Below, piece by piece: positions 22,514 through 42,986 of a stretch of 64,000 nt of DNA. The first letter of the stretch is position 1. Every line of letters begins with the position of its first letter. The notes beneath the pieces are model-generated. The model did not search any database. It saw nothing but the letters and a program-made list of their open reading frames with translations, and was not told the DNA's origin. The DNA comes from Stella humosa (lineage in GTDB: Bacteria > Pseudomonadota > Alphaproteobacteria > ATCC43930 > Allostellaceae): the NCBI RefSeq assembly GCF_006738645.1, contig NZ_AP019700.1:1314001-1378000 (forward strand), in the 5' to 3' direction. Position numbers and translations under genes: made by a program.

Positions 22514-22594
22514 TGTCCCTCCCGAAAATACGGCAGCGTTGTCGCCGGGCCGTTTCCCAATGGGCGGGAGGCCCCGGCGAACTGCTCTGCCACC

Positions 22595-38460: not shown

Positions 38461-39930
38461 GTGGCCAACTATCTTGAAGGCATTCTCGACCATGCCGCGC
38501 GGCGGCCCCGGGCGCCGGCGCTGATCCTGCCGGATCGCACCATCGACTTCGCGGGCCTCGCCCGGTCGATGGCGGGGGTATCGATCGGGCTGGCCGCCCA
38601 CGGCCTCCCGCCCGGCGCCGTGGTCGCCATCGCCACCCGCTCACCGGCCGCCACCTTCCGCGCGATCCTCGGCACGATCCTGGGCGGCCATGTCGCCATG
38701 CCGCTCGATCTCAAGGCCGGCCCGGCCGCGCTGTTCGAGATCGCGGCGCGGACGGGCGCCAGTGCCGCGCTGGTGGAGGGGCAGGGCGGCACTCTGGCCG
38801 GCCGGCCGGCGATCGACCTCGACAGCCTGCCCGCGTCCGGCGATGCCGAGGCCTGCCGCCATCCGGGCGGCGCGCATCTGGCGCAGGTCACGATCACATC
38901 GGGCACCACCGGCCCGTCCAAGGCCGCACCCGCCACCCATGCCCAGATGCTGGAGCGCACGCGATCGCTGGAAGGCCTGCTGGCCCTTGGCCCCGACGAT
39001 CGCTTCCTGCCCGTCATCGACCTGTCCTTCGGCCTGAGCCGGCATGCCGCCATCCGCATGCTGGATGTCGGGGGCGCGGTCGTCCTGCATCCTCTGCCGG
39101 GTTCGGCGGCGGACCTGATGGCGCTGCTGCGCGACCAGCGGGTGACCTACATGGCGATCACGCCCGGCCATGCGCATGTGATGCTGGAGGCTGTGGAGGC
39201 TCTAGGGCCGGGCGACGGGCCGGCCTTGCCCGGCGTGCGCGTGCTGTCCATCAGCGGCGCCCATGTTCCGGCGGACATGCGGGCCGAGATCCGCCGTCGC
39301 CTGACGCCGGGCCTGCATGTGAGCTATGGCAGCAACGAGACCGGCCACGTCGCCCATGCCGGCCCCGCGGAACTGGACCGGGCGCCCGACACCGTCGGCC
39401 GTCCCCTGCCGGGAATCGCGGTCGAGGTCGTCGACGACCGCGGTCGCCCGCTGCCCGCCGGGACGATCGGGGAGATCCGCGTCCGCAGCCGGCAGATCTC
39501 CCAGGCCTATCTGGGCGATGCCGCGGCGACCGCGCGCGGCTTCCGGGCGGATGGCTTCCACATGGGCGACACCGGGCACTTCGATGCGGGCGGACACCTG
39601 TTCCTGACTGGACGGGTCGACGACCGCATCAATGTCGGCGGCCAGAAGGTCTATCCGTTCGAGGTGGAGGCGGTCCTGCGGTCGCATCCCGCGGTGGCCG
39701 ATGCCGTGGTCTTCGGCATGCCGGCGCCGCGGTACAGCGAGATCGTCGTGGCCGTCGTCGTGCTGCGGGGGGACGTGGCGGTGGCGGACCTGCACGCCTA
39801 CTGCCGCGGCCGGCTGCCGCGCGCCAAGGTGCCGCGCCGGATATTCAAGTTCGCCGAACTGCCGCGCAACGAGACCGGGAAGGTGATGGTGCGGGCCCTG
39901 CGCGACCGCCTTGCCCTGCCCGGGGGATGA
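38461..39930 (+). CDS. Stand-alone AMP-forming acyl/aryl ligase (ANL superfamily), copy 1
   Basis: 489 residues from GTG 38461; ribosome site weak. Adenylation motifs are complete: ITSGTTGPSKAAPATHAQ (ATP loop), ISGAHVPADM, HVSYGSNETGHVA, GFHMGDTGHFD plus GRVDDRINVGGQKVYPFEVE (hinge), and the catalytic lysine in PRNETGKVM near the end. No carrier or condensation domain is attached. Such enzymes make acyl-AMP and then an acyl-CoA or acyl-carrier thioester. The adjacent gene is a paralogue, 15 bp downstream, which suggests a two-substrate pathway or a heteromeric unit. Confidence 0.85.
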   Translation: MANYLEGILDHAARRPRAPALILPDRTIDFAGLARSMAGVSIGLAAHGLPPGAVVAIATRSPAATFRAILGTILGGHVAMPLDLKAGPAALFEIAARTGASAALVEGQGGTLAGRPAIDLDSLPASGDAEACRHPGGAHLAQVTITSGTTGPSKAAPATHAQMLERTRSLEGLLALGPDDRFLPVIDLSFGLSRHAAIRMLDVGGAVVLHPLPGSAADLMALLRDQRVTYMAITPGHAHVMLEAVEALGPGDGPALPGVRVLSISGAHVPADMRAEIRRRLTPGLHVSYGSNETGHVAHAGPAELDRAPDTVGRPLPGIAVEVVDDRGRPLPAGTIGEIRVRSRQISQAYLGDAAATARGFRADGFHMGDTGHFDAGGHLFLTGRVDDRINVGGQKVYPFEVEAVLRSHPAVADAVVFGMPAPRYSEIVVAVVVLRGDVAVADLHAYCRGRLPRAKVPRRIFKFAELPRNETGKVMVRALRDRLALPGG

Positions 39931-39945
39931 GGGAGGGCTGGGGTC

Positions 39946-41448
39946 GTGCCTGACGAGAAGCGGTCCTTGGAAAATCTGGTCGATCCGATCCTGGCGCTGG
40001 CGGCGGCCGGCCCCGACCGCCCGGCGATCGAGACGGAAGTCGAGACCTTGTCCTATGCCGGGCTGGTGGATCGGATGGCGGCATTCGCCGCCGGCCTGGC
40101 CGCGGCGGGGCTGGTGCCGGGCGACGTCGTGGCGCTGGCGATCCGCGAGCCGGCAGCGATGCTGGTCGCCCTCAGCGGGGCGATGCTGGGGGGCTTCGCG
40201 CCGATCCAGCTCGATCCCGACAGCCCGGCCGGGGAAGCCAACCGCCTGTTCGACCTGGCCCAGGCCGGCCTGCTGGTGGGCGACTGGCCGGGCGGGGACC
40301 GGGCCCGGCCGGCCACCCCGTTCGCCCAGGTGCTGGCGGCGGGTGCGGGGGCCGTCGCGGCCGACATGCGCCAGCCGGGCGGCGAGCGGCCGGCCCAGAT
40401 CAACCTGTCGTCCGGCACCACCGGCCTGCGCAAGGCGGTGCCGATCGCCCATGCCCAGCAGCTCGGCCGCTCGCGCGGCGTCATCGGTGCCCTGGGGCAG
40501 GGGCCGGGTGACCGCCACCTGCCGCTGTTGCAGCTCCACTTCGCCTTCGGCCGCCAGGCGGCGATGCGCGTCCTGCTGTCGGGCGGCACGGTGGTGGCGC
40601 TGCGGCTGCCGACCGACATCGCGGGCTTCGTGCGGTTGGTCGAGCGGCACGCGATCACCCACCTGGAGGCGACGCCCGGCCACCTGCGCTACCTGCTGGA
40701 CGGGATCGCGCCGGACGGGCCGCTGCTGCTGCCCGGCATACGCTGCCTGGCGGTGTCGACCGCGATGCTGCGCGTGGGCGAACGCAAGACGGTGCGCCGC
40801 CGCCTGACCCCTAACCTCTACATCACCTATGGCAGCAACGAGATGGGGGTCAGCGCCTGTGCCCGGCCCGAAGACCTCGACCGGGCCCTGGCGACGATCG
40901 GGCGGGCGATGCCGGGATGCGAGATCGCCATCTTCGACGAGACCGGCCTGGAGGTGCCGGCGGGGGCCGTCGGCGAAATCCGCGTGCGTACCGCCAATGC
41001 CGCCACCCGCTACCTCGGCGACGCGGCCGCCAGCGACCGCAGCTTCCGCGAGGGCTGGTTCCGGACGGGCGATGCCGGCCGCTTCGATGGCGACGGCCTG
41101 CTGTTCCTGACCGGGCGCCTCGACGACCGGATCAACTTCGGCGGCGTGAAGATCTATCCCGTCGAGATCGAGGACGTGCTGCGCGAGCATGCCGGCGTGG
41201 CCGACGTGGCGGTCGTGGCCCTCCCCTCGGTGCGCTCCCAGCAGATGCCGGCGGCAGCGATCATCGGCCGCGGCGCGGTCGACGTGGCGGCCCTGAAGGA
41301 TCATTGCCGGGCCCGCCTGGGCCCCCGGCGCAGCCCGCAGCATATCGTCCTCGTCGAGGCCTTTCCGCTGACGGGCACCGGCAAGGTCGATGGCCCGGCC
41401 CTGCGCCAACTGTTGACGGAACGGATCAACGGCCCGGGCGGGGCCTGA
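39946..41448 (+). CDS. Stand-alone AMP-forming acyl/aryl ligase (ANL superfamily), copy 2
   Basis: 500 residues from GTG 39946 (GAGGG upstream). Motifs are LSSGTTGLRKAVPIAHAQQ, YITYGSNEMGVSA, GWFRTGDAGRFD with GRLDDRINFGGVKIYPVEIE, and the lysine in PLTGTGKVD. The invariant E of the usual Y-G-x-T/S-E motif is kept as SNE. It is clearly homologous to copy 1 throughout (RRRLTPNLYITYGSNE against RRRLTPGLHVSYGSNE) but divergent, so probably specific for another acid. It is convergent with the ATP-grasp-like gene, 30 bp apart. Confidence 0.85.
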   Translation: MPDEKRSLENLVDPILALAAAGPDRPAIETEVETLSYAGLVDRMAAFAAGLAAAGLVPGDVVALAIREPAAMLVALSGAMLGGFAPIQLDPDSPAGEANRLFDLAQAGLLVGDWPGGDRARPATPFAQVLAAGAGAVAADMRQPGGERPAQINLSSGTTGLRKAVPIAHAQQLGRSRGVIGALGQGPGDRHLPLLQLHFAFGRQAAMRVLLSGGTVVALRLPTDIAGFVRLVERHAITHLEATPGHLRYLLDGIAPDGPLLLPGIRCLAVSTAMLRVGERKTVRRRLTPNLYITYGSNEMGVSACARPEDLDRALATIGRAMPGCEIAIFDETGLEVPAGAVGEIRVRTANAATRYLGDAAASDRSFREGWFRTGDAGRFDGDGLLFLTGRLDDRINFGGVKIYPVEIEDVLREHAGVADVAVVALPSVRSQQMPAAAIIGRGAVDVAALKDHCRARLGPRRSPQHIVLVEAFPLTGTGKVDGPALRQLLTERINGPGGA

Positions 41449-41478: not shown

Positions 41479-42369
41479 TCAGGCCCCGTCGAGCGCCTCG
41501 AAGGCGGTGGCGATCTGGGGGAACAGGCGCTGGGCCACCGGCGCGCGATCGGGCCGCAGGCTGGCGGGGCTGGCGATCAGCGGGTTGGTGTTGATCTCCC
41601 AGACGATGAAACGGCCGTCCGGGCGTACGCTGAAGTCGATCCGGCCATAGTCGATCCGCGCCAGCTCGAAGATGCGGCGGATGTCGGCCTCCCACGGGTT
41701 GTCGTCGAGGAAGCGCAGCTCGCGCGCGCGTTCTTCGGGCCAGTCCAGGTCGGCATCCTTCACCGACCAGCCGCGGCTGGTGTCCATGTGGCCGGGGACG
41801 ATGGCCTCGCCGATGCGGAAGGCGCCGTACTTGCGATAAAGGCCCAGCGAATCGGCCGTGTCCGAGAACTCGACGATGATGGCCTTCTGCCGCGGCCAGC
41901 CGCGCTCGTGCAGTTCGCCGATCGCATGGCGCAGGTCCGGGGCGTCGCCGATGAGGGCGCTGACCGGGCCGGAGTGGTTGTCGTCGCGCCGCAGGAAGAC
42001 CGGATAGCGGCGCGGCAGGCGCCGGTCGGTAACGCGGCAGACGTCGAAGTCGTTCATGCCGCGGTCATGGAGCACGCGCAGCATCTCGTAGCGCCGCAGG
42101 CCGCGGGTGGGATGGTTCAACAGGCGGCAGCCGGCGGCTTCCAGGTGCCGCCACAGGCCGGCCGCGCGCGTCGCCAGCGGCGGCAGCAGCCGCTCCAGGT
42201 CCGAGAAGATCCACGTCGCCGGCACCATCCCGGCCAGCCCGGCCGTGCCGGCGCCCAGGATGTCGACATAGGTGCGATGGACGATGCGGCCGGCCTGATG
42301 GGCGCCCGGCCCCTCGAGATAGTCGCCGATCGTATAGGCATGGTCGGTCGTGGACAGATAGACGATCAC
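41479..42369 (-). CDS. ATP-grasp-like protein of unknown substrate
   Basis: 296 residues from GTG 42369, chosen because GGGGAG lies upstream and the protein then begins VIVYLSTTDHAYTIGDYLEG, a typical first strand. The end motif RIDYGRIDFSVRPDGRFIVWEINTNP is the metal- and ATP-binding finish of the ATP-grasp fold, and PVFLRRDDNHSGP looks like the nucleotide-binding lysine/arginine strand. Middle residues (HERGWPRQKAIIVEFSD) fit a shortened grasp domain. It would couple ATP to ligation of a carboxylate. It converges with two AMP-forming ligases, so all three may belong to one amide-forming route; that is inference. Confidence 0.65.
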   Translation of the reverse strand: MIVYLSTTDHAYTIGDYLEGPGAHQAGRIVHRTYVDILGAGTAGLAGMVPATWIFSDLERLLPPLATRAAGLWRHLEAAGCRLLNHPTRGLRRYEMLRVLHDRGMNDFDVCRVTDRRLPRRYPVFLRRDDNHSGPVSALIGDAPDLRHAIGELHERGWPRQKAIIVEFSDTADSLGLYRKYGAFRIGEAIVPGHMDTSRGWSVKDADLDWPEERARELRFLDDNPWEADIRRIFELARIDYGRIDFSVRPDGRFIVWEINTNPLIASPASLRPDRAPVAQRLFPQIATAFEALDGA

Positions 42370-42439
42370 CGAAGATGCTCCCCGCGCGCGATGCGACCCG
42401 GTGCCGGCCCGCCATGCATAGCGCAAATCGCGGCCGCCG

Positions 42440-42484
42440 CCCCACGCGCAGTTGCCCCACGCGCGGTTGCCTCACGCGCAGTTG
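42440..42484. repeat. Three tandem copies of a 15-bp repeat
   Basis: The unit is CC(C/T)CACGCGC(A/G)GTTG, at 42440-42454, 42455-42469 and 42470-42484, with one to two differences per copy. It lies about 70-115 bases upstream of the ATP-grasp-like start. It could be an array of protein-binding sites. Confidence 0.7.
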
Positions 42485-42494
42485 AACAGGCGCC

Positions 42495-42674
42495 GCCTTG
42501 GTCGGTGCCGGCCCATCCCCATCTCTGGTAGCGAGAGGGCCGGCGCCCCACAAGGCAGCCGCCCTTCAGGCTCCGATGTCGGGGATCATGCGGCGGACGT
42601 CCCTCCCGTCCGCCATGCCGGCCCTGCCGGAGCCGGTGGGCCGGGGCGAGAGTCCCGGCCCACTTTCTTTTGGC
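42495..42674 (+). ncRNA. Candidate structured small RNA with intrinsic terminator
   Basis: Three nested helices are visible. Helix 1 is GCCTTG (42495-42500)/CAAGGC (42551-42556) enclosing GGTGCCGGCCC (42504-42514)/GGGCCGGCGCC (42537-42547), with a small TCTC/GAGA tip. Helix 2 is GGCTCCG (42569-42575)/CGGAGCC (42629-42635) enclosing GGCGGACG/CGTCCGCC (42592-42599/42608-42615). Helix 3 is the terminator. The plus-strand orientation is set by the U-rich tail. No upstream plus-strand gene exists that this could end. It matches no RNA family I recognise. It may be a trans-acting small RNA or a leader that stops before bfd. Confidence 0.4.
42637..42674 (+). terminator. Intrinsic terminator of the candidate small RNA
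   Basis: GTGGGCCGGG and CCCGGCCCAC form a perfect 10-bp stem with an 8-base loop, followed at once by TTTCTTTT. This is the cleanest rho-independent terminator in the window. Confidence 0.65.
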
Positions 42675-42765
42675 ATCAGCCCGGCCTTTGGCATCCGCCC
42701 GGCACCGCCAGCAGGAATCGCTCGCATTCGCACTTGATCTTGCCCAGGCGTCCGCGTAATATCTT

Positions 42766-42782
42766 CTGCGAATGGTTCGCAG
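42766..42782 (+). promoter_or_regulatory. Palindrome before bfd, iron-regulator-like
   Basis: CTGCGAA-TGG-TTCGCAG is a perfect 7-3-7 repeat ending 12 bases before the bfd ATG. TGCGAAT...TTCGCA is reminiscent of alphaproteobacterial Fur-type sites, and bfd genes are commonly iron-repressed. The regulator (Fur, Irr or RirA) cannot be named from this alone. Confidence 0.45.
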
Positions 42783-42794
42783 TTGCTGGGTGTC

Positions 42795-42986
42795 ATGATC
42801 GTTTGCAGTTGCCGCGTCATCTCCGATCGCGAAATCCGCGCCGCCGCGGCGGCCGGTGCCCGGCGATGTGGGGAAGTGTTCCGCCGCTGCGGGAATGCTC
42901 CGCAATGCGGCACCTGCCTTCCCACGATCCGCGAGATGCTGGCCTCTGCCTGCGCCGACCGGCCGATGCTGGCCGGCGCCGACTAG
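42795..42986 (+). CDS. bfd: Bacterioferritin-associated ferredoxin, [2Fe-2S]
   Basis: 63 residues from ATG 42795 (MIVCSCRVISDREIRAAAAAGA...). Cysteines C4-x-C6 and the later CGTC pair (QCGTCLPTI) are the four ligands of the Bfd-type [2Fe-2S] cluster. Length and spacing match the E. coli protein of about 64 residues. Bfd docks on bacterioferritin and passes electrons to the core so that stored iron is released. The bfr gene ends 4 bp away on the opposite strand. A TTG 12 bases upstream is a possible but less likely start. Confidence 0.9.
   Translation: MIVCSCRVISDREIRAAAAAGARRCGEVFRRCGNAPQCGTCLPTIREMLASACADRPMLAGAD

Follow-up and report, generated by a model that had tools for sequence, protein, structure and literature searches.

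A candidate small RNA with an invariant, proposed anti-Shine-Dalgarno loop, conserved upstream of bfd in Stella

The region upstream of bfd, the gene of bacterioferritin-associated ferredoxin, in Stella (Allostella) humosa ATCC 43930, a bacterium with star-shaped cells, raises the question of whether a structured RNA is encoded there, and whether such an RNA would serve bfd or act on other genes. The analysed DNA, here called the window, is a stretch of 64,000 nucleotides from this genome (5,832,650 bases in one contig, G000). An initial annotation, made from the letters of the window, had proposed a new structured RNA of three successive helices at 42495-42674 and had considered it either an iron-linked small RNA or a terminated leader of bfd. 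The three helices are present, at 42495-42556, at 42569-42634 with an inner hairpin, and at 42635-42664. The plus strand of 42495-42674 folds at -108.9 kcal/mol, compared with -86.5 +/- 4.5 kcal/mol for dinucleotide shuffles (z -5.0; 0/200 shuffles as low), and the minus strand gives a z of -2.7 by the same measure. The third helix, with 13 pairs and the tail TTCTTTT, is the sole terminator-like site within 42300-42830. As also described before, no plus-strand gene closely precedes the RNA, the nearest upstream gene (41479-42369) being divergent from it, and the distance of about 90 bases from the terminator to the palindrome at bfd was found to be 95 bases, from the end of the tail at 42671 to 42767.

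The locus is flanked by bfd (42795-42986, plus strand; Pfam Fer2_BFD, 3.2e-11), by a convergent bacterioferritin gene (Ferritin) and by the divergent upstream gene. We compared it among four genomes of the Stella family, namely S. humosa, Stella sp. ATCC 35155 (G001), S. vacuolata ATCC 43931 (G003) and a fragmented fourth genome of the same genus (G002). The intergenic regions upstream of bfd could be aligned in all four, with an identity of 64-71% in the RNA. In each of them the RNA lies just upstream of bfd, despite a differing gene on the other flank: judged by reading the translations, the same divergent gene is found in S. humosa and ATCC 35155, an aldehyde dehydrogenase-like gene in S. 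vacuolata and an oxidoreductase-like gene in G002. Further upstream in the window, the plus strand of 38461-41448 holds two tandem, mutually similar open frames resembling AMP-dependent acyl ligases, and a direct repeat, TTTGGCATCMGCCC, with copies 18 bp apart, lies at 42669-42700 immediately after the terminator. The minimum conserved extent of the proposed RNA, which covaries in the four genomes and ends with the terminator-like stem, is 42513-42671 on the plus strand, and its 5' end could reach about 42473.

Within this extent, a 5' region beginning with CCATCCCCATCTC (42513-42534) is near-invariant in the alignment and partly paired in predictions, and it is a possible second seed. It is followed by hairpin A (42535-42566; 12 pairs with one bulge per side), in which two pairs are exchanged on both sides in relatives, and by stem B (42569-42634), whose outer part consists of seven pairs (42569-42575/42628-42634) and whose inner part consists of eight (42592-42599/42607-42614). 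Six pairs of stem B, spread over both parts, changed on both sides. The inner part carries the seven-base apical loop UCCCUCC (42600-42606), identical in the four genomes, and the terminator-like stem with its tail (42635-42671) abuts and stacks on stem B. Hairpin A and stem B were recovered by individual folds in all four species. Of the three helices seen in the window, those at 42569-42634 and 42635-42664 are kept in relatives. The two-part first helix (42495-42556) is found in the window alone, since relatives can form only 12-14 of its 23 pairs and the sequence of its 3' arm joins hairpin A in them. On the predicted folds, a transcript that begins early enough to include this helix may, in the window, form it at the expense of hairpin A.

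The covariation of these stems in relatives, proposed earlier as a check, was evaluated in an N-padded alignment of only four sequences. MAFFT had put gaps in the wrong places in both stem B and hairpin A, and the alignment was therefore edited manually to follow the fold. In this alignment, which by its construction favours the fold, 146 of the 150 cells pair (97%), nine pairs changed on both sides, and 0/500 shuffles were as good; when the partner was slid by one to three columns, pairing fell to 36-56%. Unadjusted MAFFT alignments gave RNAalifold column-shuffle z scores of -5.6 to -6.9 for the plus strand versus about -4.4 for the minus strand. Thirteen G-U cells on the plus strand turn into mismatches on the minus strand (133/150 pair), and therefore the plus strand is the RNA. 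Accordingly, the proposal of a structured RNA gains support from covariation. Judged from the sequence comparison, the plus strand of 42513-42671 encodes a structured RNA with a conserved secondary structure and compensatory changes.

On the one hand, the folding of the minus strand beyond chance (z about -4.4) and a T-tract after the terminator stem that is good only in the window, and weak or absent in three relatives, are what one would expect if there were no RNA gene here, and the GC-rich intergenic DNA contained instead an element conserved as DNA, or paired terminators serving the flanking genes. On the other hand, the compensatory changes fall in two hairpins other than the terminator, the G-U bias favours the plus strand, the element occurs once in the genome, and three of the four genomes lack any convergent or upstream plus-strand gene that would need a terminator. 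We consider the absence of an RNA gene very improbable.

The RNA appears to be confined to Stella. A covariance model built from the four Stella copies found these same copies, at 132, 114, 112 and 84 bits, as the only strong match in each genome, with the next best at 19.5 bits or less. A repeat element was rejected because the sequence is single-copy in the S. humosa genome, and a conserved small protein was rejected on the basis of indels of 1, 2, 4, 5 and 7 bases between species and the lack of a conserved start. With 386 genomes sampled from the class and 43 from the order, the next model matches reached at most 25 bits, and those inspected outside the Stella family lacked the loop or the helices or consisted of a bare terminator stem; since only a few candidates per genome are scored in searches of this size, distant relatives may have escaped them. 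In the sister family, the 450 bases preceding bfd showed no C-rich hairpin loop, and model matches were weak (19.5 bits or less). Rfam gave no match at the gathering score and nothing credible at E up to 10, which agrees with the earlier description of the RNA as new. Weak partial matches over the 3' part of the RNA to ar35 (RF02346; 18.8 bits) and BjrC68 (RF02353; 19.0 bits) are far under the gathering scores of 45 and 39, and we treated them as chance. We found no small RNA of Stella described in the literature.

The start of the RNA was sought in the sequence before it. Three 15-bp tandem repeats, CACGCGCAGTTG, lie at 42443-42484 on the plus strand, the last of which is kept in the four genomes as CACGnnCnGTTGA; the spacing is 15-17 bp, ATCC 35155 has two repeats (L012, 2677-2705) and each of the other two species has one diverged copy. 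The block CACGCGCAGTTG/CACGnnCnGTTGA may serve the RNA gene as a promoter or operator. A search of the sequence preceding the RNA gave no sigma-70-like promoter, and no -10 element could be recognised to go with the conserved CACGnnCnGTTGA block. As an operator used genome-wide, CACGCGCAGTTG was rejected, since five exact copies versus two for a reversed control, two of the five being at the RNA locus, is near chance.

Downstream, the elements before bfd bear on the two roles that had first been suggested. A promoter, TTGATC-N17-TAATAT (42734-42762, plus strand), precedes bfd with the same spacing in the four genomes, in the form TTGATC-N17-TAnnnT 60-90 bases past the terminator stem. It is followed by the 15-bp palindrome TGCGAATGGTTCGCA (42767-42781), a Fur-type operator of bfd that is invariant in the four Stella genomes and lies 13 bases before the bfd ATG. 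Both are among the invariant runs of the four-genome alignment, together with the loop block GUCCCUCCCG, parts of the 5' CCAUCCCCAUCUC stretch and most of the terminator stem. Close variants of the TGCGAATGGTTCGCA palindrome precede bfd in the sister family; Fur-type palindromes of the form TGCGAAYnATTCGCA were observed before bfd in several of its genomes (L042, L047, L048, L055).

A cis-acting leader of bfd would start upstream and use the terminator stem to gate the access of polymerase to bfd, in the manner of an attenuator or riboswitch, and the constant position of the RNA directly upstream of bfd in four genomes, with a terminator-like stem preceding the gene, would suit it. However, in each of the four genomes a conserved promoter and a palindromic operator of bfd's own separate the terminator from the gene, and therefore a terminated leader is unlikely. 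No conserved alternative pairing that could act as an antiterminator was found across the four genomes, and helix 42495-42556, which alone competes with hairpin A in the window, is not kept in relatives.

Iron control of bfd itself is likely, considering its palindrome together with the repression of bfd by Fe-Fur in Caulobacter, as cited in PMC11475020. An iron-sparing or iron-storage small RNA (RyhB/IsrR-like), co-regulated with bfd and bfr, would be consistent with the RNA adjoining these genes in four species. However, no Fur-type palindrome was found before the RNA at the four loci, the 15-bp palindrome occurring once per locus, at bfd, and the targets predicted from loop complementarity are transporters and metabolic enzymes rather than iron proteins. 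Beyond its address, the RNA shows nothing that supports the iron-linked role first suggested, and we regard this role as quite unlikely. Iron control of the RNA has no support in the sequence; because the RNA stays beside bfd in four species, a link is still possible.

We consider it probable that the locus encodes an independent small RNA of about 160 nt, present in one copy and restricted to the Stella (Allostella) lineage, which acts in trans through its loop on Shine-Dalgarno sites. Transcription of the RNA would begin at a dedicated promoter in the region of 42473-42512 and stop at the terminator-like stem. The rigid stem B would expose the loop UCCCUCC, which stays constant while the stems diverge in sequence and which has an unpaired probability of at least 0.97 in all four species for both assumed 5' ends. 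The proposed seed would pair with G-rich Shine-Dalgarno sequences of other mRNAs, and this pairing would block ribosome-binding sites and stop the translation of the targets. The complement of the loop is the Shine-Dalgarno sequence CGGGAGGGA, with the core GGAGGGA. Alternatively, the repeated stem and the C-rich loop might bind a protein or titrate another RNA, which would fit a strong, rigid fold whose invariant residues are limited to the loop, its closing pairs and the 5' CAUCCCCAUCU stretch. Since the loop is an exact Shine-Dalgarno complement, a trans-acting RNA is the simplest reading, and such a protein-binding or decoy function seems improbable to us.

For the trans-acting RNA, the likeliest targets would be genes for the solute-binding proteins of transporters, and thus nutrient uptake. 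Each genome has 9-11 sites at which CGGGAGGGA lies 3-9 bases ahead of an ATG, and 11 of the 34 open frames of useful length behind these sites encode solute-binding proteins of the families DctP, TctC, TAXI/NMT1_3, SBP_bac_3 and Peripla_BP_6; one pair of DctP genes and one of SBP_bac_3 genes appear to be orthologues, each between two species. The background, counted by phmmer from the same solute-binding families in a 400-kb sample, is 9 of 330 genes (p 9e-8 versus 11/34). A generic Shine-Dalgarno control, CAGGAGGA, also exceeded this background (4/28; p 0.013), indicating that strong Shine-Dalgarno sites are common to solute-binding genes at large; the difference between 11/34 and 4/28 is not significant (p 0.09). 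Because of this control, we regard as suggestive the enrichment of solute-binding proteins among the candidate targets, which agrees with the validated targets of NfeR1 and AbcR1/2. In the window, CGGGAGGGAC (22516-22524, minus strand), a perfect complement of the loop, lies directly before the ATG of a gene resembling those of peptide-type solute-binding proteins. Hfq (PF17209) was not found in the single-contig S. humosa genome and is present in the three other Stella genomes, which may reflect a real loss, or sequence that is unavailable or unassembled in S. humosa. Anti-Shine-Dalgarno small RNAs such as NfeR1 do not need Hfq. Given the exact seed and the target list, the proposal is directly testable.

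Among known systems, the RNA resembles ar14/NfeR1 and the 'cuckoo' RNAs of alphaproteobacteria, which carry C-rich invariant anti-Shine-Dalgarno hairpin loops on sequence-divergent stems (PMC3927594, PMC10746234, PMC8844928), in having a C-rich invariant loop on a diverging stem. The validated targets of NfeR1 are solute-binding proteins, and both NfeR1 and AbcR silence solute-binding mRNAs through anti-Shine-Dalgarno loops (PMC8844928, PMC10746234). However, the ar14 and cuckoo RNAs have two to four hairpins, each with CCUCCUCCC, whereas the Stella RNA has one C-rich loop, UCCCUCC, and ar14 gave no match to it in Rfam even at E up to 10. Membership in ar14/cuckoo was thus rejected by motif number, motif sequence and Rfam score. 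With AbcR1/2 (ar15) the RNA would share anti-Shine-Dalgarno pairing with transporter mRNAs (PMC8844928). The AbcR motifs lie in single-stranded regions and bind Hfq, whereas the Stella motif is a hairpin loop, with no Rfam ar15 match and no lsrB neighbour. In summary, the sequence evidence points to a previously undescribed, lineage-specific small RNA family of Stella (Allostella) of a known type, the anti-Shine-Dalgarno RNAs, with putative targets and presumed expression. More speculatively, and with considerable doubt, its loop may have evolved independently of ar14/cuckoo and AbcR to govern a nutrient-uptake regulon, free of Hfq in S. humosa and tied to the bfd-bfr iron-storage locus. Finding an anti-Shine-Dalgarno RNA with a single loop in a family so far removed among the alphaproteobacteria would point to more than one origin for the silencing of uptake genes through C-rich loops.
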